Positions 29,311-53,431 of a stretch of 55,999 bases of DNA are shown piece after piece. The notes beneath the pieces are model-generated. The model worked only from the letters and a program-made list of their open reading frames with translations, had not been told where the DNA came from and made no database searches. Within the stretch, counting starts at the first letter, position 1. The number at the start of each line of letters is the position of its first letter. Source of the stretch: a virus. The DNA lies in IMG/VR virus record IMGVR_UViG_3300018036_000011, positions 1 to 55,999 of that record; one strand, given 5' to 3'. Made by a program: the position numbers and the translations under genes.

Positions 29311-29961
29311 TTAGATCTTTGTAAGAAGAAGCTTCTCAAAGTGGAGTCTGTCTCCTCTACTAAGTTCCTGGTCAAGCAAATTACTTATCTGTTTATTAGA
29401 TAATACGTCTTTATTTAATAGTTTTAAATTCCTTGCTTTTCTAAGGTCGCATCTCTCAAATCTGACTGATTGAAGTCTAGCACCCTTAAAGTCTGTCATG
29501 TAAGCTGTGTAGTCTTTAAAAACACAAGCTAAAATAAAAGAATCTACGAAAGACCCTTTAGAATCGGATGTTTGATAAAAATTACATTCAGACAAAATAC
29601 AGTTTAAGAAATGAGTATTCTTAAGTCGCATTCTTCTAAATGTGACCTTTTCAAGATCTGATCCCTCAAACAGATTATTTGTAAACTTGCCACCTTCAAA
29701 TTCATAATTTTTGATGTCATGCTTCCCTGTCACACCACCGATAGAGTCATCCATATTCTCAAGATAGTCATGAGAATAATATTTCGTAGAATCCAAATAG
29801 TAATCATCTTCCCTAGTCAAATCATAGAAGGTCTGCTCCTTTGGGATCTTCTTATTGTACTGTTTCCTGATTATCTTTCTTAGTTCCATTTCGTCCTTTG
29901 ATGGCTTCCTGTATTTATATTCATTGAGATTATATGGGAGTGGATATTTATTTTTTGACAT
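29311..29961 (-). CDS. Pentapeptide-repeat protein, paralogue of its neighbour
   Basis: I start the gene at ATG 29961 (AAAGAGATAGAA upstream); the longer ORF would add a hydrophobic leader with no binding site. The 216-residue product has an N-terminal charged domain, then repeats (YEFEGGKFTNNLFEGSDLEK, FLNCILSECNFYQ, SFILACVFKDYTAYMTDFKG) and ends GDRLHFEKLLLTKI. The 3' ends of this gene and the next are nearly identical, including the stop region, so they arose by duplication. The N-terminal domains differ: no shared coiled coil here. Confidence 0.65.
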   Translation of the reverse strand: MSKNKYPLPYNLNEYKYRKPSKDEMELRKIIRKQYNKKIPKEQTFYDLTREDDYYLDSTKYYSHDYLENMDDSIGGVTGKHDIKNYEFEGGKFTNNLFEGSDLEKVTFRRMRLKNTHFLNCILSECNFYQTSDSKGSFVDSFILACVFKDYTAYMTDFKGARLQSVRFERCDLRKARNLKLLNKDVLSNKQISNLLDQELSRGDRLHFEKLLLTKI

Positions 29962-30021
29962 TTCTATCTCTTTCTTTAAGTTGGTTTTGTCTACATAGAG
30001 TGTGTGTATATAAATAATAAA

Positions 30022-30062
30022 AAAAAGGGCTGACCCCAAACAAATGGAAGCCAGCCCTTAGA
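30022..30062 (-). terminator. Intrinsic terminator of the ssDNA-binding-protein gene
   Basis: On the minus strand AAGGGCTG pairs with CAGCCCTT around a 19-21-base loop and is followed by a run of eight T. It lies 43 bases after the stop at 30105. A motif related to the minus-strand promoter-like element follows at 30007-30020, before the pentapeptide gene. Confidence 0.75.
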
Positions 30063-31446: not shown

Positions 31447-32001
31447 TTAGCTTCCAGACTTGCCCATGAACCAGCCAACAATAAATGTCACTAAACTCAT
31501 CCAGAAAGCAGTTCCAATTGAGACATCAAAGAAAGCTTCTTTGTTTTGAGAACCTAGCTTCTTAATACCTGTCACATTAAGCACCCATACAACAATAGAA
31601 CCTACAAGAAGGCAAGCAACAATAAGAATCTCTGGGTTTAAAATAAACTCCATCAAGTCAAAGCTTACACGATTCATTGAAGCCATTCTTCTCTGAGCGT
31701 TATTTCTCTCTTCAAGAATAAACTTAACTTGCTTTACAGGATTAGAACCTACTTCCTTACGAAGTGCAGCTAAAGCTTTTTTAAACTCAGGTGTCTTTGA
31801 AACACGACCATACTCTTTTGCAACTCTTTTTGGACCGCCTGCTTTCTTGAAAACTTGACCTACTTTACTTTGAACACCTTTGAAAGCTTGAAGGCCTTCT
31901 GAAACCTGTTGTCTCATTTCATCAAGAATGGCTTGCTTTTCAAGTTGAGCAACTCTGTTCTCAAGAATTGCAATTTTCTCTGATGCCGTTAAATGTCTCA
32001 T
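31447..32001 (-). CDS. Coiled-coil protein with two membrane segments, paralogue 1
   Basis: The 184-residue protein begins MRHLTASEKIAILENRVAQL, which is a heptad segment shared with four other genes. It shares SKTPEFKKALAALRKEVGSN and the following KQVKFIL region with its downstream paralogue. Two hydrophobic helices follow near residues 125-145 (ILIVACLLVGSIVVWVLNV) and 160-180 (FWMSLVTFIVGWFMG). ATG 32001 follows AAAAGGAAAAAGCA, and a TAGTCTATTTATAC motif is about 42 bases upstream. Possible roles include membrane attachment of a phage structure or an internal virion protein. Confidence 0.6.
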   Translation of the reverse strand: MRHLTASEKIAILENRVAQLEKQAILDEMRQQVSEGLQAFKGVQSKVGQVFKKAGGPKRVAKEYGRVSKTPEFKKALAALRKEVGSNPVKQVKFILEERNNAQRRMASMNRVSFDLMEFILNPEILIVACLLVGSIVVWVLNVTGIKKLGSQNKEAFFDVSIGTAFWMSLVTFIVGWFMGKSGS

Positions 32002-32086: not shown

Positions 32087-32659
32087 ATGAGAGTTATTGT
32101 AGAGGGGTTGATTGGAGTAGGCAAAAGCACATTCACAACGGAGTTTGCAAGAATACATAAGCTAAACCCAATGTATGAGTCTGTTGATGATAATCCTTTT
32201 CTCTCAAAGTTCTATTCAGACCCAGAGAGATGGGCTTACACTCTTCAAATGCATTTCCTCTACGACAGATACTCAAAGCACCTTCCAGAGAACATCATCT
32301 TAGACAGGTCTATCTGGGGTGACCTTTGCTTTGCAAACATACTAAGAGAAGATGGTACTCTGACAGAAGAAGAGTATGAGTCTTATTTGAGCCATTCAAA
32401 AGTTTTAACAAACCATGTCCCTAAAGTAGACTTGTGTATACACCTTGATGTACCTGTCTATAAAGCAATGGACAGGATTAGTAAAAGGGGGAGAGGTTTT
32501 GAGACTTCTATTTCAGAAGATTACTTGGTTAGGCTCAAGAAAGAAATAGACTCACTCCCCTCTTTCTTACCCTCTGACATTAAGTATGTTAAAATTGATT
32601 GGGAAGACATGAGCCTAGATGAAATATCTAGATATATTTCAAATATAGATTTAAAATAA
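32087..32659 (+). CDS. Deoxynucleoside kinase
   Basis: A kinase of the dCK/dGK family that phosphorylates deoxynucleosides to monophosphates using ATP. The P-loop is VEGLIGVGKST at residues 4-14; the substrate-binding ERS/DRS element is IILDRSIWGD near residue 71, and the lid-type segment RISKRGRGFE lies near 128. At 190 residues it is slightly short but normal for bacterial and phage members. The ATG follows AGGAGGCTGC. It complements thyX and RNR by salvaging nucleosides from degraded host DNA. Which base it prefers is not visible. Confidence 0.9.
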   Translation: MRVIVEGLIGVGKSTFTTEFARIHKLNPMYESVDDNPFLSKFYSDPERWAYTLQMHFLYDRYSKHLPENIILDRSIWGDLCFANILREDGTLTEEEYESYLSHSKVLTNHVPKVDLCIHLDVPVYKAMDRISKRGRGFETSISEDYLVRLKKEIDSLPSFLPSDIKYVKIDWEDMSLDEISRYISNIDLK

Positions 32660-34189
32660 GGATACTTGACCTTTCTCATCTAGCTTTAGTCTTTCTTCTT
32701 TATATATTTCGCAGCTATTTTCGTTTACTTGTTCCCTTAAGTTTGAAGGTGCTGATCTGCCTTTCCTCGTTGTATTCGCTTGTCTTCTTAGTGCTTCATC
32801 AGACCTTAAAGGTAAGGAATCCATAGTGTTAGGGGTTGCCCATATAGATTCCTCTATATCTACACCCCTCTCCTCAGCTTCAACTTGAACCTGTAGAGTA
32901 GGTGCGAAGGTCTCTTTGCCCTGCTCTAAGCGACTCTTCATTCTTGAGATATAATGACGTAGGTTCTCACCCCTCTGTGAAGCTGGAGGAGTTGACCAAT
33001 TCTCTCCATAAATCAACGAAGGCTCTTCTTGCAGTATCTGGAACAACTCCATTTCCAAGCATTCTGAGCTCATCCGTTCTATTATCAAAGGACTCGTACA
33101 GCTTGGTTGCACCCACCCTATTGGAAGCCCCATCAAGGTCTCTACCCACCTCGGGTTCAACTTCATTGCAGCGTCCTTGCCCATGCTCACACGATCTGCG
33201 AAGTTCAGAGAGTGTGACTCCCCCACCCCTTTCGCTTTCCTTCGACCCGTCATTGTCAGAGTTATCTCTTTGTGGTGTATTTCCTGCGTTGTTGGAGTTG
33301 GCCACCCATATAAAGGGATGCTCGCTTCCTTCTCTTGAGTCTCCTTCAGGAGATCCTGATATATCTCTATTGCGTGAGGGTTCACCTGCTCCCGTAGATT
33401 GCCTGGATGGGAGCGTCTTTTCCTCCCCCCTGCTCTTGCTAGTCTTCTCAATGCCTCGTCGCTCCTCTGGTCTAGATGATCGAGAGTATTGGGAGTCCCC
33501 CAGAGTGACTCTTGGAGGCTCCCATGAGTATTGGTCTCTTCCTCTTGAGGATGGGTATATAGAGCCACTTGTGTCTCGGTTTCGGTCAAGGAGTCCATTG
33601 ACCCATTCCAAGCTTTCTCTTTCGGTACCTCTTTTAATACCAAGAATGAAGACTCGCTTCCTTCTATGTGGAGCACCGACTTCTCTCGCTGAGAATATAC
33701 CTGCCGTTGCTTCGTAACCCACCCTCTCCAATTCTCTAAGAACATGGAGCAAAACCGATGTTCCTTTTGGATCTGACCAATCATCTGATTTGAGTTCTGC
33801 TGAGAGGATTCCTTCGACATTCTCAAGGAAAATAACGGAAGGTTGAGATACTTTAACTCCTCTGATGATATGTGGGAAGAGGTGTCTTGGGTCTGAGTCT
33901 GCTTTTCTTTTTCCTGCTGAACTAAAGGGCTGACAAGGGAAGCCTCCTGACAAGATATCCACTTTTCCACGAAAGATTTCCCAGTCGAGGGTTTTAAGAT
34001 TCGACCAGATAGGTGCTGGCTCAATAAACCCTTTTTCCATCTTTGCAACCAAGTTGCAGATTGGGAAGCTTTCGATCTCCACATAAGTGATTGTTCTGAC
34101 ATCTCCGAGAGCTTTTTTAAGTCCGATGTCGATTCCCCCATAACCTGCACAGAGTGATAGGTGTTTAAGTTCTTTGGTACTATCCACAT
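32651..34189 (-). CDS. 512-residue ORF overlapping the dcm gene in another frame
   Basis: This frame starts at ATG 34189, two bases before the GTG of the methyltransferase gene and behind the same AGGAG. It covers that gene completely and runs 316 bases past its stop. It carries two copies of a 45-residue unit (33355-33497 and 32700-32839) of the form TPNTxDxLxxRSDEALRR...NLREQVN...EIY. Fifteen residues in the two blocks are identical between copies, while ten of those codons differ only synonymously. It also has LNPRWVETLMGLPIGWV, which I recall from phage methyltransferase-type entries. So at least its second half is under protein-level selection. It may be a separate overlapping gene or a frameshift extension. 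Function unknown. Confidence 0.6.
   Translation of the reverse strand: MWIVPKNLNTYHSVQVMGESTSDLKKLSEMSEQSLMWRSKASQSATWLQRWKKGLLSQHLSGRILKPSTGKSFVEKWISCQEASLVSPLVQQEKEKQTQTQDTSSHISSEELKYLNLPLFSLRMSKESSQQNSNQMIGQIQKEHRFCSMFLENWRGWVTKQRQVYSQREKSVLHIEGSESSFLVLKEVPKEKAWNGSMDSLTETETQVALYTHPQEEETNTHGSLQESLWGTPNTLDHLDQRSDEALRRLARAGGRKRRSHPGNLREQVNPHAIEIYQDLLKETQEKEASIPLYGWPTPTTQEIHHKEITLTMTGRRKAKGVGESHSLNFADRVSMGKDAAMKLNPRWVETLMGLPIGWVQPSCTSPLIIERMSSECLEMELFQILQEEPSLIYGENWSTPPASQRGENLRHYISRMKSRLEQGKETFAPTLQVQVEAEERGVDIEESIWATPNTMDSLPLRSDEALRRQANTTRKGRSAPSNLREQVNENSCEIYKEERLKLDEKGQVSLF
32967..34187 (-). CDS. dcm: DNA cytosine-C5 methyltransferase
   Basis: Transfers a methyl group from S-adenosylmethionine to carbon 5 of cytosine in DNA. 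Motif I is LSLCAGYGGIDIGL near residue 10, motif IV with the catalytic cysteine is GGFPCQPFSSAG near 82, motif VI is IFLENVEGI near 120, motif VIII is REVGAPHRRKRVFILG near 170, and motif X is ELRMLGNGVVPDTARRAF near the C-terminus. Start is GTG, sharing the AGGAGAAATTA site with the overlapping ATG frame. Residues about 190-330, where a target-recognition domain should be, are unusually rich in R, S, G and E, and that stretch is visibly richer in GC than the rest of the window. Here the other frame seems to be the constrained one. Confidence 0.85.
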   Translation of the reverse strand: MDSTKELKHLSLCAGYGGIDIGLKKALGDVRTITYVEIESFPICNLVAKMEKGFIEPAPIWSNLKTLDWEIFRGKVDILSGGFPCQPFSSAGKRKADSDPRHLFPHIIRGVKVSQPSVIFLENVEGILSAELKSDDWSDPKGTSVLLHVLRELERVGYEATAGIFSAREVGAPHRRKRVFILGIKRGTERESLEWVNGLLDRNRDTSGSIYPSSRGRDQYSWEPPRVTLGDSQYSRSSRPEERRGIEKTSKSRGEEKTLPSRQSTGAGEPSRNRDISGSPEGDSREGSEHPFIWVANSNNAGNTPQRDNSDNDGSKESERGGGVTLSELRRSCEHGQGRCNEVEPEVGRDLDGASNRVGATKLYESFDNRTDELRMLGNGVVPDTARRAFVDLWRELVNSSSFTEG

Positions 34190-34244
34190 TAATTTCTCCT
34201 ATAATAACATGCTACACTTATATATTATACCTAAACCCCCCAGA

Positions 34245-36417: not shown

Positions 36418-37497
36418 TTATAGGGACTTGGTACTCACAGCTTCATAACCTCGCTTGCTGCCAAGCTCCCAATCTCCCCTCTTCAGCAACAAACTCTTAG
36501 CCTTACCCTTGCCTAAGATGCAAGTCTGCTTGAGAGTGTGGTTTCTCACCTGTAAGTTCGCACTCTTAAAGGTATAGCCCTCCTCTAACTTGTCCAAGTA
36601 AACCTCACGAGGCACAAGCTCTACCTCACCCTCTAAGTTAATCAACTTCACAGGCTTCAAAGACCAATTCCCCATCTGACCCTTAGACTTGGCCTCCCGA
36701 ACACCCTCTAACTTAGAGATCACATCATAGTTGACCCTCTCTAAGTCATAGTGAGTTCCAAACTTGAACCCATGCTCCAAAACAAGATGCTTCACCACAT
36801 CATGCTGACCACAACTATATATCCCAATGTCCATATGGTGAATGTTCACAACACCCTTAGAGCAAAGCGACCAACCCAGCCTAAAGTACTCCGCTAACTG
36901 CTCTCTTGGTATCTCGATCTCAACTCCGTCTTTCTCTACCTTGATCGGTTTCATATTTCCGTCCCTACATTTACCTTTCCACTCGATATTGTCATACATA
37001 ACATCTCTTTGCTTCTTCTTAAACGAGGGGTCCTTTATAGTCTTAGTATAAGACTCATGCCACCTCTGTCGTGCTTCTCCCTCTCTTGAAGCAAGAACCT
37101 TCTCACGATAGCCCTCATCCTCCCATAAGGATTTCGTCCTCTCACTCATCTCCATCCTAACGATAGAGTCCGAGCAATAATGCTTCAAAGCGTTAGATGA
37201 AGAACCCATACCCCCACTGTTCATGTTCAAACAAAGTGGGTCGTGGTCATCACCACCGATATACTTCTCGCCCACAATATCTGCCTCATAAGCGTAAGCT
37301 TCACTCTCCTCATCAAACTCCTTTAAGATTTCTTTCTCAAACTCATTAGGGTGAGCTTTCATCTTACGCAAAAGCAAGATGCCAGAGCCTTGATACTTAC
37401 TTCCATCTGGATCTCGATCAGAGTAAGTACCCTTGCCGATGTAATACTCGCCTGTCCTCTTGTTAAACTGACGATAAACATAATAACCTTTAGCCAT
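36418..37497 (-). CDS. GIY-YIG homing endonuclease
   Basis: A 359-residue endonuclease. The GIY-YIG domain spans residues 1-95: YYVYRQFNKRTGEYYIGKGT holds the YVY and YIG strands, and a helix with glutamate-rich segment (YAYEADIVGEKYI) and LCLNMNSGGMG follow. The C-terminal half has two similar modules, one with KPIKVEKDGVEIEIPREQL and one with KPVKLINLEGEVELVPREVY, which could contact DNA. It lies 75 bases downstream of nrdB in the same direction, and base composition is somewhat richer in GC than its neighbours. Such enzymes cut intron- or insertion-less alleles and spread by recombination. The nrdB tail is duplicated around it. Confidence 0.85.
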   Translation of the reverse strand: MAKGYYVYRQFNKRTGEYYIGKGTYSDRDPDGSKYQGSGILLLRKMKAHPNEFEKEILKEFDEESEAYAYEADIVGEKYIGGDDHDPLCLNMNSGGMGSSSNALKHYCSDSIVRMEMSERTKSLWEDEGYREKVLASREGEARQRWHESYTKTIKDPSFKKKQRDVMYDNIEWKGKCRDGNMKPIKVEKDGVEIEIPREQLAEYFRLGWSLCSKGVVNIHHMDIGIYSCGQHDVVKHLVLEHGFKFGTHYDLERVNYDVISKLEGVREAKSKGQMGNWSLKPVKLINLEGEVELVPREVYLDKLEEGYTFKSANLQVRNHTLKQTCILGKGKAKSLLLKRGDWELGSKRGYEAVSTKSL

Positions 37498-42603: not shown

Positions 42604-43511
42604 TGGTTTTACATGGGAACTCAAAGAGTTATATCCAGATTAGATCTCAAGAGATTCTTGAAGAATACAGAGCGAATGGTTATGAAGTCAGAGATCTTTC
42701 CCCAAAGAGTGAACTCTCTCTGGAAGAGTGTTTCAGCTCTGGTTTGTTTGACACAAGCCCTATTTTAGTTTTTGTTAAGAACCCTATGAAAGTTAAAGGT
42801 CTTAGTGCTTACTTGAAAGATACAAGGGGTTGTGAGGTTCTTGTATGTTATGACAAGGATAAATTGCCGAAGATGTTAACAGGCTATATGTCTCAATGTT
42901 TTACAGAGCCTAAATACGACAATCAGAAATTAGATTGGTGTGCTAAGTTTGTATCAGACTATGTAGAAAGGCACGGGAAGAAGATTTCGAAAGATCTTTC
43001 AAAGGCTGTTGTTTCAAAAGTAGGTACAGATCTTGGTGTCCTTCGATTTGAGGTCTTGAAATATGTCATGTCAAGCGAGGGGGAAGATATTACTCCACGA
43101 ACCATTGCAGGGAACTTGGGGGATTTGACAGGGCCAGAGTCTTCTGATTTGATTGACTCTATCATAAGCAGAGACTCGAGAAGATTTCTTAAGGTATGTG
43201 CCAAGATAGAAAAGAGTAGTTCAACAGATCAAACGATGGCTGTTTGTAATGGTCTTTTGTTCTACACTTTAAGACAGTTATTTGACGTAGGTGTTTTGCT
43301 TGCAGAAAAATATACACCCGATCAGATTGCAAATGATTTAGGAAAGAACCCTTGGTTGGTACAAAATATATTAAAGCCTCAAGTTGAGTCATTGGGTCTT
43401 GAAAGAATTATTCTTTTAATAGAGTCTCTATATAACTCAGAGAATTCTGTTCTGAAAGGTTCACGAAACCCTTGGAGCAAATTCAAGTCAGAAATCTTAA
43501 GAAACATTTAA
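42594..43511 (+). CDS. holA: Clamp-loader subunit delta (HolA-like)
   Basis: A 305-residue protein overlapping the delta' gene by 10 bases. The layout follows bacterial delta, which opens the sliding clamp: N-terminal domain with strand VMVLHGNSKSYIQIRSQEIL, then SLEECFSSGLFDTSPILVFV, matching 'a.slFs..rlv.v', followed by a lid domain with helices (LSKAVVSKVGTDLGVLRFEV, as in 'L.....nD...l..Ele KL') and a C-terminal helical collar. The family is divergent, so this rests on pattern and on the neighbour. ATG follows TAGGGGGTCTGAA. Confidence 0.75.
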   Translation: MSVMVLHGNSKSYIQIRSQEILEEYRANGYEVRDLSPKSELSLEECFSSGLFDTSPILVFVKNPMKVKGLSAYLKDTRGCEVLVCYDKDKLPKMLTGYMSQCFTEPKYDNQKLDWCAKFVSDYVERHGKKISKDLSKAVVSKVGTDLGVLRFEVLKYVMSSEGEDITPRTIAGNLGDLTGPESSDLIDSIISRDSRRFLKVCAKIEKSSSTDQTMAVCNGLLFYTLRQLFDVGVLLAEKYTPDQIANDLGKNPWLVQNILKPQVESLGLERIILLIESLYNSENSVLKGSRNPWSKFKSEILRNI

Positions 43512-43549
43512 ATGAAGCCCACAAGGTTATAGTGGGCGAAGGATATGAA

Positions 43550-46225
43550 ATGAAGGTTCAATTCTCAGACCACGCAAATTCTTTGTTGAAATCTTATTAC
43601 ATGAAAGATAGTGATGCTTCTGTTGAAGATGCTTTTAAAAGAGCCTCTTTTGCATACACACCGAACAAGGAGTTGGCTCAAAGAATATATGAGTATGCTT
43701 GTAAGGGCTGGTTTATGTTTAGCTCTCCAATTCTATCTAATGCTGAAAGTTCAGGTATGCCTATTTCTTGCTTTCTCTCGTATGTAGAAGACACAGTAGA
43801 AGGGTTGATTGAACACACGGAAGAATTAAGATGGATGTCTGTGATGGGTGGTGGAGTAGGAGGCCATTGGGATCATGTTCGTTCAGTGAGCAAGAAATCT
43901 CCTGGTCCTATTCCTTTCTTAAAGACTGTTGATTCAGATATGGTTGCATACAGACAAGGATTAACTCGAAAGGGTTCTTATGCAGCATATATGGATGTGA
44001 GTCACCCAGACATTATTGAGTTCTTGAACTTGAGATTGCCAACAGGTGGAGACCCAGCTAGGAAATGTTTTAATCTTAACAATGCAGTAAATCTGACTGA
44101 TGAGTTCATGAGTGCAGTTATGGCTGGTGATAAGTGGGATCTTGTAGACCCTAAGGACAAGACTGTTCGTAATACAGTAGATGCTCGTGAGCTTTGGCAA
44201 AGAATCCTTGAGGTTCGCTTTAGGACAGGAGAACCTTATCTTAACTTCATTGACGAGGCGAACCGACACCTACCTCAACCTCTCAAAGATAAGGGCTTGA
44301 AGATTCATGGTTCAAACCTTTGTGTTCGAGGTGACACACAAGTACTTACTCGTGATGGTTATTTCCAGATCTCATCTTTGGATAATCAAGATGTTGAGGT
44401 TTGGAACGGAAAAGAATGGTCTATGACCACCGTTGTCCAAACAGGAGAAGATCAAGAGATCCTTGAGGTTGTTCTTGACAATGGGACTACTCTTTACACA
44501 ACACCTTATCACAAGTTTTATGACCATAAGGGTCATGTGGCAGAGGCCAAAGATTTAACCACTTCCACAAAGCTCTTGAAGTTTGAGATGCCTGTGGTTG
44601 AGGGTAGGGGCGATTGGGAGAACGCTTATTCTTGTGGGTTCTTCACAGGAGACGGGACATACAACCACCTCCATCAACCAATATCTTATCTTTACGGTAA
44701 GAAGAAGGCATTACTTGACAGGGTCGCCACACCTCTTTGTCGAGTCCACACAGGTTCTAAATCGGATCGGTTTTCAGTTCTCCATGACAAGTCCGAAATC
44801 AAAGCAAAGTACGAAGTGCCTCTTGGTATGTCCTTAAGCACTCGCTTAAAGTGGCTCTCGGGACTCTTAGATGCAGATGGTTGCGTGGCTAGGAATGGGC
44901 TAAATCAAAGCTTACAGCTTGCGTCTACAAATCGAGACTTTCTCACCGATCTGTGTCTCATGTTAAATACACTTGGAGTTCAGCCCAGAGTGTCAGACTT
45001 CATGCCTGAGAGAACGGTAAACTTTGGCTCGGAGAGGGGTGGTGAGTATCGTTGTAAGGAAGCATGGAGGATCTTAATCAACTCTAACGATACTCAAAAG
45101 CTACTTGGATTGGGCTTGGAAACTCATCGTCTAGTCTTGAAGGAGCACAAGCCACAAAGGTCAGCTTCAAGGTTTGTTCGTGTCCTTAGTGTCTCTAAGT
45201 CACAGGATGCAGACACTTATTGTTTCAACGAACCGAAGAGACACATGGGGGTGTTTAATGGTGTTCTTACAGGCAACTGTAATGAAATTCATCTCCCAAC
45301 AGGTAAAGGTAGGTCTGCTGTTTGTTGCCTTTCAAGCCTTAATGTGGAGATGTTTGATGAGTGGAAAGACACAACTATTGTTGAAGACTTGATTGAGTTT
45401 CTTGATGATGTTTTACAGTACTTCATTGAGAATGCTCCCCCTCAGTTAGGGAAAGCTATCTACAGTGCCAAGAGAGAAAGGTCTTTGGGTCTGGGTACTA
45501 TGGGTTTCCATGCTTACCTCCAAAAGAAGGGTCTTCCCTTTGAGTCTGTCTTTGCTGTTTCAGCTAATCGTAAGATTTACTCAACCATTAAGGAAAGGGC
45601 AGTTGCTTCTTCAAAGCGTCTAGCAGAAATCAAAGGTGAGTATCTTGATGGTATTGGATCTGGCATGAGAAATAGCCACCTGCTTGCTATTGCTCCAAAT
45701 GCTAACTCAGCTATTATTCTTGATACAAGCCCAAGCATTGAACCTTGGAAGTCAAATGCTTTCACACATAGAACCAGAGCAGGTTCTTTTCTTCAGTTTA
45801 ATAAGCATCTAATGGCTGTGCTTGAAAAGCATAGTCCAGAAGAAGATAAGCAAGAGTGGATTGACTCACAGGTTCAGTCTATTATTTTAGCTCAAGGTTC
45901 TGTGCAACATTTAGAGTATTTAAGTGACTTTGAGAAAAATACTTTTAAGACAGCATTTGAGATTGACCAGATGTGGATAGTGGAACACGCTTCTGTAAGA
46001 CAGGAGTGGGTCTGTCAGGGTCAATCTGTAAACTTGTTCTTCCCTGCTGGTTCAGACAAGAACTATGTGAACGCTGTTCACCTTTCAGCATGGAAGAAGA
46101 AGCTCAAGGGTCTGTATTATCTCCGAACCAATGCAGGTGTAGTTGCTGACAAGGTTAGTGAGAAGATTGAGCGTAAGGCATTGAAGGATTATGACATTGA
46201 TGAATGTATGAGCTGTCAGGGTTAG
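43550..46225 (+). CDS. nrdA: Ribonucleotide reductase large subunit (class I, NrdA) with an intein
   Basis: Reduces ribonucleotides to deoxyribonucleotides together with NrdB. I start at ATG 43550 behind AAGGATATGAA; the 26 residues upstream overlap holA. Of 891 residues, 319 form an intein and 572 remain after splicing. Extein landmarks: SSPILSNAESSGMPISCFL (first redox cysteine), GSNL|CNEIHLPT (Asn-x-Cys-x-Glu catalytic triad, split by the intein), SAVCCLSSLNVEM, RERSLGLGTMGFHAYL and the C-terminal CMSC redox pair. There is no N-terminal ATP cone, so activity is probably not dATP-inhibited. Confidence 0.95.
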   Translation: MKVQFSDHANSLLKSYYMKDSDASVEDAFKRASFAYTPNKELAQRIYEYACKGWFMFSSPILSNAESSGMPISCFLSYVEDTVEGLIEHTEELRWMSVMGGGVGGHWDHVRSVSKKSPGPIPFLKTVDSDMVAYRQGLTRKGSYAAYMDVSHPDIIEFLNLRLPTGGDPARKCFNLNNAVNLTDEFMSAVMAGDKWDLVDPKDKTVRNTVDARELWQRILEVRFRTGEPYLNFIDEANRHLPQPLKDKGLKIHGSNLCVRGDTQVLTRDGYFQISSLDNQDVEVWNGKEWSMTTVVQTGEDQEILEVVLDNGTTLYTTPYHKFYDHKGHVAEAKDLTTSTKLLKFEMPVVEGRGDWENAYSCGFFTGDGTYNHLHQPISYLYGKKKALLDRVATPLCRVHTGSKSDRFSVLHDKSEIKAKYEVPLGMSLSTRLKWLSGLLDADGCVARNGLNQSLQLASTNRDFLTDLCLMLNTLGVQPRVSDFMPERTVNFGSERGGEYRCKEAWRILINSNDTQKLLGLGLETHRLVLKEHKPQRSASRFVRVLSVSKSQDADTYCFNEPKRHMGVFNGVLTGNCNEIHLPTGKGRSAVCCLSSLNVEMFDEWKDTTIVEDLIEFLDDVLQYFIENAPPQLGKAIYSAKRERSLGLGTMGFHAYLQKKGLPFESVFAVSANRKIYSTIKERAVASSKRLAEIKGEYLDGIGSGMRNSHLLAIAPNANSAIILDTSPSIEPWKSNAFTHRTRAGSFLQFNKHLMAVLEKHSPEEDKQEWIDSQVQSIILAQGSVQHLEYLSDFEKNTFKTAFEIDQMWIVEHASVRQEWVCQGQSVNLFFPAGSDKNYVNAVHLSAWKKKLKGLYYLRTNAGVVADKVSEKIERKALKDYDIDECMSCQG
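44321..45277 (+). mobile_element. Intein with LAGLIDADG (DOD) homing endonuclease in NrdA
   Basis: A 319-residue protein intron that excises itself. Splicing block A is CVRGDTQVLTRDGYFQI, block B is NGTTLYTTPYHKFYD with the T-x-x-H, and the C-terminal blocks are DADTYCFNEPKRHMGVFNGV and LTGN followed by C. The first residue is Cys, the last is Asn, and the +1 residue is Cys, as required. The DOD endonuclease motifs are SCGFFTGDGTY and LKWLSGLLDADGCV. Insertion is right before the NrdA catalytic cysteine. The DNA looks somewhat richer in GC than neighbouring genes, suggesting separate origin. Confidence 0.93.
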
Positions 46226-50749: not shown

Positions 50750-50800
50750 TTTCTGTTTTGTAGTTTTTTAATGGTCTGCCTTAAAACACAGGAGGTAGTT

Positions 50801-53431
50801 ATGTCCAAAAAAGCTGTCAAAAGAGATGACCCTAAAAAAAAGAACACAGGTGAAGGTGGTCTTGATACATGGTTTGCAGGGCATGGTGGTGGTAAACCTG
50901 ATGAAAGAGCAACATGGGGTGATTGGGTTTCTATAACTCCTGTTAAGAAAACAATAACTAAAGAAGATGGATCTAAGAAGACATATGAACCAGGTGACAT
51001 TGTTGGCCCATGTGGGATATCTAGTGACCCAGAGTGGTCATCCATTACAGAGAATGGAAAAAAGCCCCTCAAATGTATGCCAAGAGAAAAAGCTCATGAT
51101 ATGGCAAAAAAAGACAGAGCAGAACTCGCTAAGAACAAGAAAAAACAAGAGAGTGGTGGAAAGAAGCCTACTAACACTCCTACCTTTTCTGAGGAAGCTA
51201 AAGAAGTTTTAGACAAGAAGTCTGCTCTAGGGATTACTAGAAACTCTAGGGCTGTATCGAAGCTGAAAAAAGCTATCTTACACCTTTTAGCTTTCTATGC
51301 AGAAGATCAAGACAAGAAGATTACAGAGTTCTTGAGCCTTGTTTTGGATAAAGTCGAGTCTAGGCTTCAAAATCAGTTCAATATCAGAAGGTTTTCTTTA
51401 GAATCTGCTTCAATAAATAGGTATGACCCTTCTGCAACTAACATTTCCCTTTACTATGCGATAAATGGGGGGAGTTATAGGGTAGACCTGAACATAGGGT
51501 ATTCAAACCAATACTCTAGATTTAATAGCAATGTTCCTTTGAGAAAGAGAATGGGTGTAGCTCTGTACTCCATAAAAAAGGTGGCAAGTAGTTCTATCTT
51601 AATCCCACCCCCACCCTCTGAAGAAGAACACCTCCGAGAGCTTTCTGAAGTATCGTATCAGTATGAAAATAGATATAATGCTCCAGAGTTGCAGGACGCT
51701 TTAGATTCAAGTTCAGAACATCTTTTTTCAAATCTCTTACTAGAACATGGTCATGTTGAGTCACCTGTTAACATCAAATCTATGATGGATGGGATTCTGG
51801 GAAGTATAGTTATTCATAAAAGCTTCTTCAATGTCTCAAGGCCTAATGTTCTAGCTAGCAAACATGGTATTCCATTTAAGTATGACTACTTAGAGTCTGC
51901 ACAGACACCTAGCTACCCTAGTGGACACACAGCTCAGGCTTACTATGCTGCTCTCTTACTTGCTGATAAATACCCTCTCCTGAGAGAGGGTTTATTAAAT
52001 ATAGCCAGGATGGTTGAACAATCGAGAGTAGATAGAGGTGTCCATTACCCTTCAGACAACAAGGCAGGTAAACTACTCGCTACTGTTCTTTATGAGAATA
52101 AGAAGCTAGGAAAGAAAGCAGACTTCTTTAGAGAAGTATCTCCACCAGATTCTTTAACAAGTTTAAATCAAGGAAGTCATGGTAAGGATGAGAACCCCGA
52201 TGGTGTAAATGACCACAGTTCTTTGCCTAATGGGGATTCAGCAAGGAATATAGGCAGACCTTCTCCAGATTCTCCTAATCTGAAGTATAAAGATCTTCAC
52301 AATCAACCTAGACCTACAAATGTTATAGACAGAGGGTATGTGAATAACAGTGGTAGTGGTTCAGCGAGGGTCATACCTCAGTCTTTAAAACAAGCTGGTT
52401 CTCAACCTGCACAAGATTTAGCTGGTGTGAAGACATGGGTGACTAAGACCAGACAAGATCAAATAAATAATGACACTAACCCCGAAAAGACAAGAGCAGA
52501 TTATGAAGACGGTAAGCCTCAGAGAGACAGAGTTCTACCTTTACCTAGTGGACACCCAGAGGGGAGAACGGAAGACAGGGCAGCACCGAAAGGATTTAAT
52601 ACTGTGCCCGATTCTAGTGGTCAGGGTGGACAGAATAGACCACCGAAAGATCCAAGTGCATTAAAAGACCAACCAGAGGGTAAAGCACTACACGAAAGAC
52701 CTCGATCTAGTGCTGTTCCAGGAGAGAACTATGGACATCCTTATATAGATCAGTCTACTTCTACGGGTCTTAAACGCAGAATTGTGGGAAATACTGAATT
52801 CTGGGATGTTGAAGATGGTGAGGTTGTGGCTGGTCAGTCTAAGCGTAAGACCAACTATAGAATCAAACGCAGACTTAGGATGCGACCTAGTACAAAGTCT
52901 CTTCGCAAGAGAAGAACCAATGTACAACAAAGAAATAGGCAACGGAAGCTATATAGAAAACGAATCAAGACAGACTCTAATTTTAGAAAGAACAGAAAAG
53001 ACTATCGTAAGCAGTATTACAAGAAGCACAAAAAAAGCTCAGAAGGTGAAGTTCTTCCTTTTGAGACTCAAGGGCTAAAGAAAAGTAAGATGATTAAACA
53101 GATGCCTGCTCAAATAGATGAGATCTGGGATGTTGATGACAATGGTGAATTAATAAAAGTTGCTGTAAGGTCTTTGATGCCTCAAAAAAATAGACAGAAG
53201 AAGATGAAGGGTCAAGTCCGTATTGAATATGATAAGAAAAGAAGACGGATGTCCAAAGGTGAAAAGCACAAAGAGTCTCTCAGGGCTAAAAGAAGATATA
53301 ATAGAAACCCCAATAGGGCTATAAAGTATCAACAAAACAGGAGAAAGAGGCCAAAGCCTTATAGTCGTAAGGAATTTGGTGGCCCTCGAACTAAAATCCA
53401 ACAGAAAAAACAGAAAGAGAAAGATAAATGA
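50801..53431 (+). CDS. Large putative virion protein with PAP2-type phosphatase signature
   Basis: I start at ATG 50801 behind AGGAGGTAGTT, giving 876 residues. Residues 15-105 match a small phage domain (GEGGLDTWFAGHGGGKPDER, then ATWGDWVSITP) related to DUF6321-type sequences. Residues about 345-440 carry the three PAP2/haloperoxidase phosphatase motifs in order: KSFFNVSRP, PSYPSGHTAQAY and SRVDRGVHYPSD. A long Gly/Pro/Ser/Asp-rich stretch follows (about 450-660) and the last 200 residues are extremely basic (KRKTNYRIKRRLRMR), likely binding DNA. I cannot say whether it is an ejected protein or a head protein. The Dps gene overlaps its end. Confidence 0.7.
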   Translation: MSKKAVKRDDPKKKNTGEGGLDTWFAGHGGGKPDERATWGDWVSITPVKKTITKEDGSKKTYEPGDIVGPCGISSDPEWSSITENGKKPLKCMPREKAHDMAKKDRAELAKNKKKQESGGKKPTNTPTFSEEAKEVLDKKSALGITRNSRAVSKLKKAILHLLAFYAEDQDKKITEFLSLVLDKVESRLQNQFNIRRFSLESASINRYDPSATNISLYYAINGGSYRVDLNIGYSNQYSRFNSNVPLRKRMGVALYSIKKVASSSILIPPPPSEEEHLRELSEVSYQYENRYNAPELQDALDSSSEHLFSNLLLEHGHVESPVNIKSMMDGILGSIVIHKSFFNVSRPNVLASKHGIPFKYDYLESAQTPSYPSGHTAQAYYAALLLADKYPLLREGLLNIARMVEQSRVDRGVHYPSDNKAGKLLATVLYENKKLGKKADFFREVSPPDSLTSLNQGSHGKDENPDGVNDHSSLPNGDSARNIGRPSPDSPNLKYKDLHNQPRPTNVIDRGYVNNSGSGSARVIPQSLKQAGSQPAQDLAGVKTWVTKTRQDQINNDTNPEKTRADYEDGKPQRDRVLPLPSGHPEGRTEDRAAPKGFNTVPDSSGQGGQNRPPKDPSALKDQPEGKALHERPRSSAVPGENYGHPYIDQSTSTGLKRRIVGNTEFWDVEDGEVVAGQSKRKTNYRIKRRLRMRPSTKSLRKRRTNVQQRNRQRKLYRKRIKTDSNFRKNRKDYRKQYYKKHKKSSEGEVLPFETQGLKKSKMIKQMPAQIDEIWDVDDNGELIKVAVRSLMPQKNRQKKMKGQVRIEYDKKRRRMSKGEKHKESLRAKRRYNRNPNRAIKYQQNRRKRPKPYSRKEFGGPRTKIQQKKQKEKDK

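Follow-up and report, generated by a model that had tools for sequence, protein, structure and literature searches.

Two overlapping reading frames with a common start region appear to encode the catalytic and recognition subunits of a viral cytosine-C5 DNA methyltransferase

We analyzed a 55,999-nucleotide stretch of viral DNA (the window; positions 1-55,999 of IMG/VR record IMGVR_UViG_3300018036_000011), in which two long open reading frames (ORFs) on the minus strand, here called frames A and B, begin at the same place and are read from the same bases. We propose, with a probability of about 85%, that they encode a two-subunit cytosine-C5 DNA methyltransferase, A providing the catalytic subunit and B the recognition subunit. 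The same layout appears in more than 100 related viral and bacterial loci. Both frames are present, the motifs of the enzyme are divided between them, the twin start is conserved, both frames are under selection, and cassettes have been exchanged between loci.

Reading of the ORFs bears out the original prediction of a single AGGAG followed by overlapping starts. Six bases downstream of AGGAG, the bases ATGTG provide an ATG for a frame of 512 codons (B) and a GTG for one of 406 codons (A) on the same strand (Table 1). Frame A lies wholly within frame B. The latter is the +1 frame relative to A and, as predicted and as the ORF coordinates confirm, extends 316 bases beyond the methyltransferase stop.

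Based on profile comparisons, A has the catalytic part of a C5 methyltransferase. It scores 128.1 bits against PF00145 (Pfam cut-off 22) and matches phrog_363 (1.1e-51), and the solved chains that it matches include M.HhaI (6.7e-10) and M.HaeIII. All key motifs from I to X had been ascribed to this frame; motifs I, IV (PCQ), VI (ENV), VIII and X are indeed there, but motif IX is located in B (residues 344-359). Thus, A exceeds the PF00145 cut-off and carries motifs I, IV, VI and VIII, as a catalytic C5 part does, but it is not a complete single-chain enzyme, because motif IX occurs only in B and the TIGR00675 match is restricted to A residues 10-205. The R/S/G/E-rich stretch previously noted in A was confirmed; it corresponds to the WxTP cassettes of B read out of frame.

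Frame B matches phrog_1008, annotated as 'DNA methyltransferase' (1.8e-06); among 89 aligned B proteins, this family matches 87 and phrog_26627 matches 84. The B of the window holds four WxTP cassettes, two ahead of motif IX and two behind it. Similarly, xPTP units stand between motifs VIII and IX, in one frame, in all ten single-frame actinophage-type relatives printed, and because of this shared row we take the cassettes as recognition units; each may have a DNA target of its own. An hhalign comparison of the B profile with the single-frame relatives aligned motif IX, over 21 columns (probability 93.4, E 2.4e-07). The arrangement had been predicted to be overprinting. Double coding does hold over most of the overlap, but the second frame is not an unrelated one, since by comparison with the single-frame relatives it carries the motif IX and the recognition region of the enzyme itself. 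If B were no subunit but an independent protein that merely shares the DNA, with an anti-restriction or regulatory role for instance, this would fit the absence of any Pfam match above cut-off for the B of the window and of any Pfam family recurring among the 89 B proteins. Nevertheless, we regard this as highly improbable, given that the sole motif IX sits in B at the place matching the single-frame relatives and that locus L026, the one locus with motif X in B, has lost the openness of A over the cassettes.

To place the frame pair among its relatives, the alignments of A and of B were each used to scan viral contigs, and that of A also to scan genome contigs, each scan contributing the best 80 loci of a longer list. 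The examined set, which includes the window's own copy and 15 loci from phage records, contains 130 distinct loci with a recognizable frame A. Motif IX was detected in 114 of them, 113 times in the +1 frame, once in the +2 frame and never in frame A, and the +1 frame is open between motif IV and the position of motif IX in all 114. Motif IX was undetected in the other 16, which differs from being absent, as the regular expressions missed some of its variants. Many of the 130 loci were retrieved through B, whereas the scan with A alone involves no selection for B; its 40 distinct classified loci all have an open B, with motif IX detected there in 30 and undetected in 10, and include no single-frame locus. 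Of 80 bacterial loci, 42 were recognized, 28 with a motif IX match in the +1 frame and 14 without. At L245, the +1 match lies outside an open B. Additionally, a DNA search with 23 fixed bases of the start region, a pattern derived from known loci whose matches share many contigs with the earlier scans, found at least 119 stretches, 107 of them distinct among the matches listed. For the 77 of these 107 with 600 downstream codons, PCQ or PCT was present in A in 75, motif IX in B in 59, and motif IX in A in none. Taking all scans together, the 291 distinct loci divide into 173 twin loci, 66 with an open +1 frame without detected motif IX, 42 others, 9 single-frame loci and 1 nested locus.

Against 50,697 phage records, the B of the window has one match, Phage C75C1 (71% covered). 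The same layout is found in Phage C75C1, Synechococcus phage Ssp-JY39 and Acinetobacter phage ABMM1, and owing to the twin frames the records are unevenly annotated, that of C75C1 giving A only and that of Ssp-JY39 giving B only. A single-protein search of viral contigs with frame A found no contig other than the one of 312 kb in which this sequence lies. Across whole bacterial genomes, the profile of the B N-terminal domain is rare, occurring in at least 6 of 289 genomes in the class of the Rhizobium locus L197 and in at least 3 of 288 in the phylum of L176; these counts include the centre genomes and are lower bounds, with at most 11 candidates scored per genome. Among eight bacterial loci inspected, L453, L455, L456 and L460 are twin-like, with B open for 81-128 codons before motif IV and no motif IX by the narrow pattern used there, and L462 has no recognizable A.

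The expected number of stops in the +1 frame was obtained by shuffling synonymous codons with the A protein and its codon use fixed. In 95 non-redundant loci including the window, the +1 frame over the conserved half of A has a mean of 0.25 stops versus 3.06 after shuffling; the +2 control in the same loci has 8.49 versus 8.55. Beyond region codon 20, a +1 stop is absent in 94 of the 95 loci, the sole exception being L011, which is of the nested type. Over a slightly shorter region and in more loci, 110 of 118 split loci (8.9 expected) have an open +1 frame across A motifs I-VIII. In contrast, among the single-frame relatives this frame is open in 1 of 9 (0.07 expected), with 2.89 stops versus 3.76. 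When the B protein is fixed instead, frame A has 0.105 stops through the cassette region from motif VIII to motif IX, compared with 5.02 expected, and remains open in 93 of 95 loci (4.1 expected), while the third frame has 8.29 stops versus 7.68. The two exceptions are L061, with one stop, and L026, with nine (9.7 expected). L026 (3001-4230) has the twin start and carries both motif IX and motif X in B, a split like that of M.AquI. Its A has no motif X to reach, and that frame has decayed; this one locus is the natural control for the idea that A crosses the cassettes only to reach motif X. Collectively, both frames are under selection. A chance origin of frame B is the least probable of the explanations that we considered; the +1 frame is naturally poorer in stops than the +2 frame (3.06 versus 8.55 after shuffling), but the stop counts, the open-frame counts, the identity of B and the counts from the twin-start search all oppose chance, and we judge this explanation to be already refuted.

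The two starts are also kept together. When starts were searched 20-70 bases before motif I in 94 loci, taking the A start nearest to that of B (a choice that favors short distances), both could be placed in 92, at most 16 bases apart, and two loci had no B start. The start is ATGTG in 67 of the 92, GTGTG in 2 and TTGTG in 2; in the other 21 the starts lie 4 to 16 bases apart, in either order. RNA folding found less structure in the start region of the window than in shuffles (z +2.68), with no hairpin at the starts by that one test, and Rfam gave nothing at gathering scores between positions 32000 and 35000. A frameshift product had been suggested as the alternative to overprinting. A fused chain can work, as the single-frame version in mycobacteriophage ShiLan (gp70, L173) indicates, but with motifs I-VIII in A, motif IX in B and motif X again in A, a single chain would have to shift twice, first +1 and then back (a slippery site was not searched for), and both frames have their own nearby starts in the 92 loci. 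We therefore consider a programmed frameshift that fuses the frames into one enzyme very unlikely.

Less improbable, although still unlikely, is that B is made from an internal start only, as a short motif IX subunit nested in A, and that the open +1 frame upstream is a by-product. Such a nested arrangement exists in Paenibacillus phage Shelly (gp55/gp56), the +1 frame of L011, L012 and L015 has stops over part of motifs I-IV, B is open for just 14-41 codons before motif IV in L457, L458 and L459 (three of the eight bacterial loci inspected), and L344 has a stop in B at codon 108. However, in the clade of the window the +1 frame is free of stops up to the shared start, with the 94 of 95 loci mentioned above, a B start is retained at the shared place, and B residues ~17-85 are conserved above the level of a shadow of A.

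This last point was examined by comparing B identity with that of +1 shadow translations. Over B ~17-85, opposite A motifs I-IV, identity is 0.617 at an A identity of 0.745, compared with a +1 shadow of 0.423 in flanking genes (A identity 0.733) and of 0.415 in single-frame methyltransferases over the same residues (two pairs). Furthermore, residues W2, P5, D23, L60, L65 and S68 in the N-terminal domain (B 1-85), and W154, V158, R162 and R168 in the region of a predicted helix (local pLDDT ~91-94 in AlphaFold2), are conserved in at least 90% of the 89 rows. The prediction that B would be constrained only opposite the low-complexity part of A thus does not hold. Codon positions were compared as well. 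When the window is compared with L005, the counts of differences at the first, second and third codon positions of A are 13, 6 and 14 over A 1-60, 9, 4 and 10 over A 61-120, and 5, 2 and 17 over A 121-186; in the single-coding tail of B (B 407-460), they are 1, 3 and 20. Over many pairs, the fraction of third positions that differ in the first part of A is 0.356 (third/first ratio 1.72) versus 0.507 (2.16) in flanking genes from the same loci at an A identity of 0.7-0.8, 0.262 (1.91) versus 0.386 (2.87) at 0.8-0.9, and 0.140 (2.23) versus 0.175 (4.44) at 0.9 or above. Stops in homologues and third-position patterns fitting the methyltransferase alone had been named beforehand as the observations that would speak against double coding; with both looked for, double coding stands in this clade.

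Several observations weigh against the two-subunit reading. In the identity bins below 0.6, the third/first ratio (1.41 and 1.54) does not differ from that of flanking genes (1.43 and 1.57). The ratio is also lowered over the second part of A, opposite B ~91-149 (1.76, 1.91 and 2.50), and therefore does not locate the constraint by itself. Identity of B ~91-149 is 0.451 versus 0.423, with no real excess, so this part may be only a linker. Over B ~147-180 it is 0.531 versus 0.423 in flanking genes, yet single-frame methyltransferases reach 0.576 (seven pairs), and the excess is for that reason unproven. The sequence pairs behind the codon-position and B-identity comparisons are not independent. 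The +2 frame also exceeds its shuffles in identity (0.374 versus 0.269; +1, 0.417 versus 0.275), which partly reflects shared ancestry; it is not a clean control, and single-frame relatives and flanking genes took its place. The set of single-frame relatives is itself a small control, with 9 loci, and has a high G+C content (0.62). AlphaFold2 models of B and of B 1-190 have a low mean pLDDT (56 and 61), leaving the N-terminal domain without fold support, and the hhalign match around motif IX leaves the cassettes uncovered. Finally, some relatives are damaged: apart from the B stop of L344, A closes at 215 in L438, with motif IX in the third frame, both frames close within 42 codons in L358, and L380 lacks the catalytic PCQ part while retaining the start, motif IX and motif X. 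On balance, B appears to consist of a conserved N-terminal domain over A motifs I-IV, a linker, an uncertain helix, and then the cassettes with motif IX.

The cassettes vary among loci. Among 168 B proteins, 441 segments open with [WFL]x[TS]P; 24 follow a detected motif IX, and the remaining 417 include those of 27 B proteins without detected motif IX. Small cassette families reappear across loci beside differing neighbors, and in L005, whose B is 73% identical to that of the window, a different cassette type occupies the place of cassette 1. Within the window, cassette 1, before motif IX, is similar to cassette 4, which lies after motif IX and beyond the A stop; B extends beyond the A stop in 15 of 92 loci. 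Single-linkage clustering placed 246 of the 441 cassettes in one cluster, and cluster sizes are therefore unusable as counts of cassette types. As a separate observation, L022 (3001-4767) and L101 (2999-4891) have two copies of motif IX in B, the second beyond the A stop.

A tree of the A catalytic core was built from 73 rows, sampling 43 of the 173 twin loci and leaving out the enterobacterial and Acinetobacter phage members; its root is unknown and it contains long branches. A branch with 100/98 support separates the 43 twin rows and two 'other' rows from the 9 single-frame rows, the nested row and 18 further rows. The two 'other' rows are L207, which lies at a contig end, and L056, which comes from the same contig as L344 and L107, where a stop interrupts B. 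In this sample, the simplest reading is that the twin layout arose once.

We infer that both frames are translated and that their products assemble into an active enzyme with a target site. A ribosome on the single AGGAG would start either at the ATG, producing B, or at the GTG two bases later, producing A, so that one message would yield two products. A would adopt the catalytic fold with motifs I-VIII, bind S-adenosylmethionine and perform the chemistry; it would then cross the DNA coding the B cassettes as a flexible linker and end in motif X, which, by analogy with solved C5 methyltransferases, might pack back onto the catalytic domain. Motif IX and target recognition would come from B, the latter through its row of exchangeable WxTP cassettes, and the B N-terminal domain over A motifs I-IV most likely serves to keep the two subunits together. 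These assignments follow the roles that PMC3404938 gives for the domains of C5 methyltransferases. The likely job of the enzyme would be to methylate phage DNA against host restriction. This is likelier than a restriction system because no restriction endonuclease was recognized in the neighboring ORFs scanned: PADLOC gave no match in six of them, and Pfam gave matches for three of ten, none to a restriction enzyme. More tentatively, and with somewhat less than even odds for the whole combination, this may be a two-subunit enzyme of one gene length, with a single ribosome-binding site, two starts and a new B domain overprinted on A, in which an inert A linker frees the cassettes to be swapped and stacked; the enzyme would be multispecific and quickly re-aimed, with cassettes past the A stop as spares or extra specificities.

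Several known systems resemble parts of this arrangement. The small subunit of M.EcoHK31I is reportedly coded in another frame inside the large gene, and it starts internally. Such an internal start does not appear to be matched here, as B is open up to the shared start and is conserved in that part. Both M.EcoHK31I and M.AquI are natural two-subunit C5 enzymes (PMC3404938; for M.EcoHK31I also PMC3439449). M.EcoHK31I, which recognizes YGGCCR, is the nearest kind, with motifs I-VIII and X on its larger subunit and motif IX on the second polypeptide (PMC3404938), the same split as in the window. The same text predicts its recognition domain on the larger subunit, whereas here recognition-like units, whose role is a proposed one, lie in B. 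Unlike in M.EcoHK31I, the second frame here starts with the first, spans all of A and more, and has an N-terminal domain and cassettes. M.AquI, another split C5 enzyme, likewise has motif IX on its second subunit, but, according to the same text, its motif X is on that subunit too, while motif X of the window is in A. Listings from searches of openly licensed PMC papers present M.EcoHK31I as an enzyme of two polypeptides and contain no description of a start-to-start overlapping pair.

In nested pairs such as Paenibacillus phage Shelly gp55/gp56, motif IX and WxTP cassettes are likewise encoded in +1 relative to the catalytic gene, but B begins within A, and stops interrupt the +1 frame along part of motifs I-IV; the Shelly record calls gp56 'g55 internal gene'. 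Single-frame phage enzymes such as ShiLan gp70 share this kind of motif IX and carry the same xPTP units after motif VIII and before motif IX, with everything in one frame. Multispecific phage C5 methyltransferases of the SPR and phi3T type have several recognition domains in a row, resembling the row of proposed recognition units here, but in one frame and one chain. PMC8227390 mentions the overlap of frames in tymoviruses. For the layout itself, the nearest known parallel is this tymovirus frame pair; its starts are seven bases apart. Start-to-start double coding, the extra overprinted B domain and the shuffled cassettes are new here. As to ShiLan, the 'hidden HNH' of PMC11855218, an out-of-frame endonuclease insertion in a phage methylase, was considered for frame B and does not match its content. 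Separately, Mycobacterium phage Jarcob (genes 69/70, L003) has a methyltransferase with a ShiLan-type motif IX annotated as two end-overlapping genes; its first frame has motifs IV and VI and no match to motif VIII, and the break seemingly lies between motifs VI and VIII.

Double coding over long stretches of one strand is considered uncommon among DNA viruses and bacteria. Here, more than 100 loci have retained it, both proteins apparently belong to one enzyme, selection can be measured for each frame region by region, and single-frame, nested and L026-like relatives are at hand as natural controls. The system makes testable how ribosomes are partitioned between two overlapping start codons, how a catalytic core can acquire a new overprinted domain, and whether recognition units in one frame can be shuffled freely when the other frame encodes a linker that needs only to remain open.

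Table 1. Coordinates of the two frames and their elements in the window
Feature	Position	Strand	Basis
AGGAG, putative ribosome-binding site preceding both starts	34196..34200	-	sequence
ATGTG twin start: ATG 34189-34187 (B), GTG 34187-34185 (A)	34185..34189	-	sequence and relatives
Frame A, 406 amino acids, predicted catalytic subunit (alpha), cytosine-C5 DNA methyltransferase	32967..34187	-	PF00145, TIGR00675, phrog_363
Frame B, 512 amino acids, predicted recognition subunit (beta): motif IX, WxTP cassettes and extra N-terminal domain	32651..34189	-	phrog_1008, phrog_26627
A motif I (LSLCAGYGGID), residues 10-20	34128..34160	-	sequence, alignment
A motif IV with catalytic Cys (GGFPCQPFS), residues 81-89	33921..33947	-	sequence, M.HhaI chain match
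A motif VI (FLENVE), residues 120-125	33813..33830	-	sequence, M.HhaI chain match
A motif VIII (GAPHRRKR), residues 171-178	33654..33677	-	sequence, M.HhaI chain match
A motif X (LGNGVVP), residues 377-383, after the R/S/G/E-rich linker	33039..33059	-	sequence
B N-terminal domain, residues 1-85, overprinted on A motifs I-IV	33935..34189	-	identity above shadow over ~17-85
B residues 141-185, predicted long helix 151-173, opposite A motif VIII	33635..33769	-	conserved residues, local pLDDT
B cassette 1 (WGTPNTLDH...REQV), residues 230-295	33305..33502	-	sequence
B cassette 2 (WPTPTTQEIHHKE...), residues 296-343	33161..33304	-	sequence
B motif IX (LNPRWVETLMGLPIGW), residues 344-359	33113..33160	-	sequence; 21-column profile match with single-frame relatives
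B cassette 3 (WSTPPASQRGEN...), residues 398-449, mostly beyond the A stop	32843..32998	-	sequence
B cassette 4 (WATPNTMDSL...REQV), residues 450-512, like cassette 1, beyond the A stop	32654..32842	-	sequence

The frame pair has neighbors of nucleotide metabolism, namely a deoxynucleoside kinase and ribonucleotide reductase. A 359-amino acid protein at 36418-37497 (minus strand) matches the homing endonuclease family phrog_314 and adjoins the small subunit of ribonucleotide reductase. The large subunit (43472-46225, plus strand, 917 amino acids) has a gap of ~270 residues in its family matches, with a LAGLIDADG_3 match at 458-507, and this gap looks like an intein. A pentapeptide-repeat protein (PF13599) is encoded at 29311-30039 (minus strand), and an 886-amino acid protein with a PAP2 domain match at 347-439 is encoded at 50771-53431 (plus strand).

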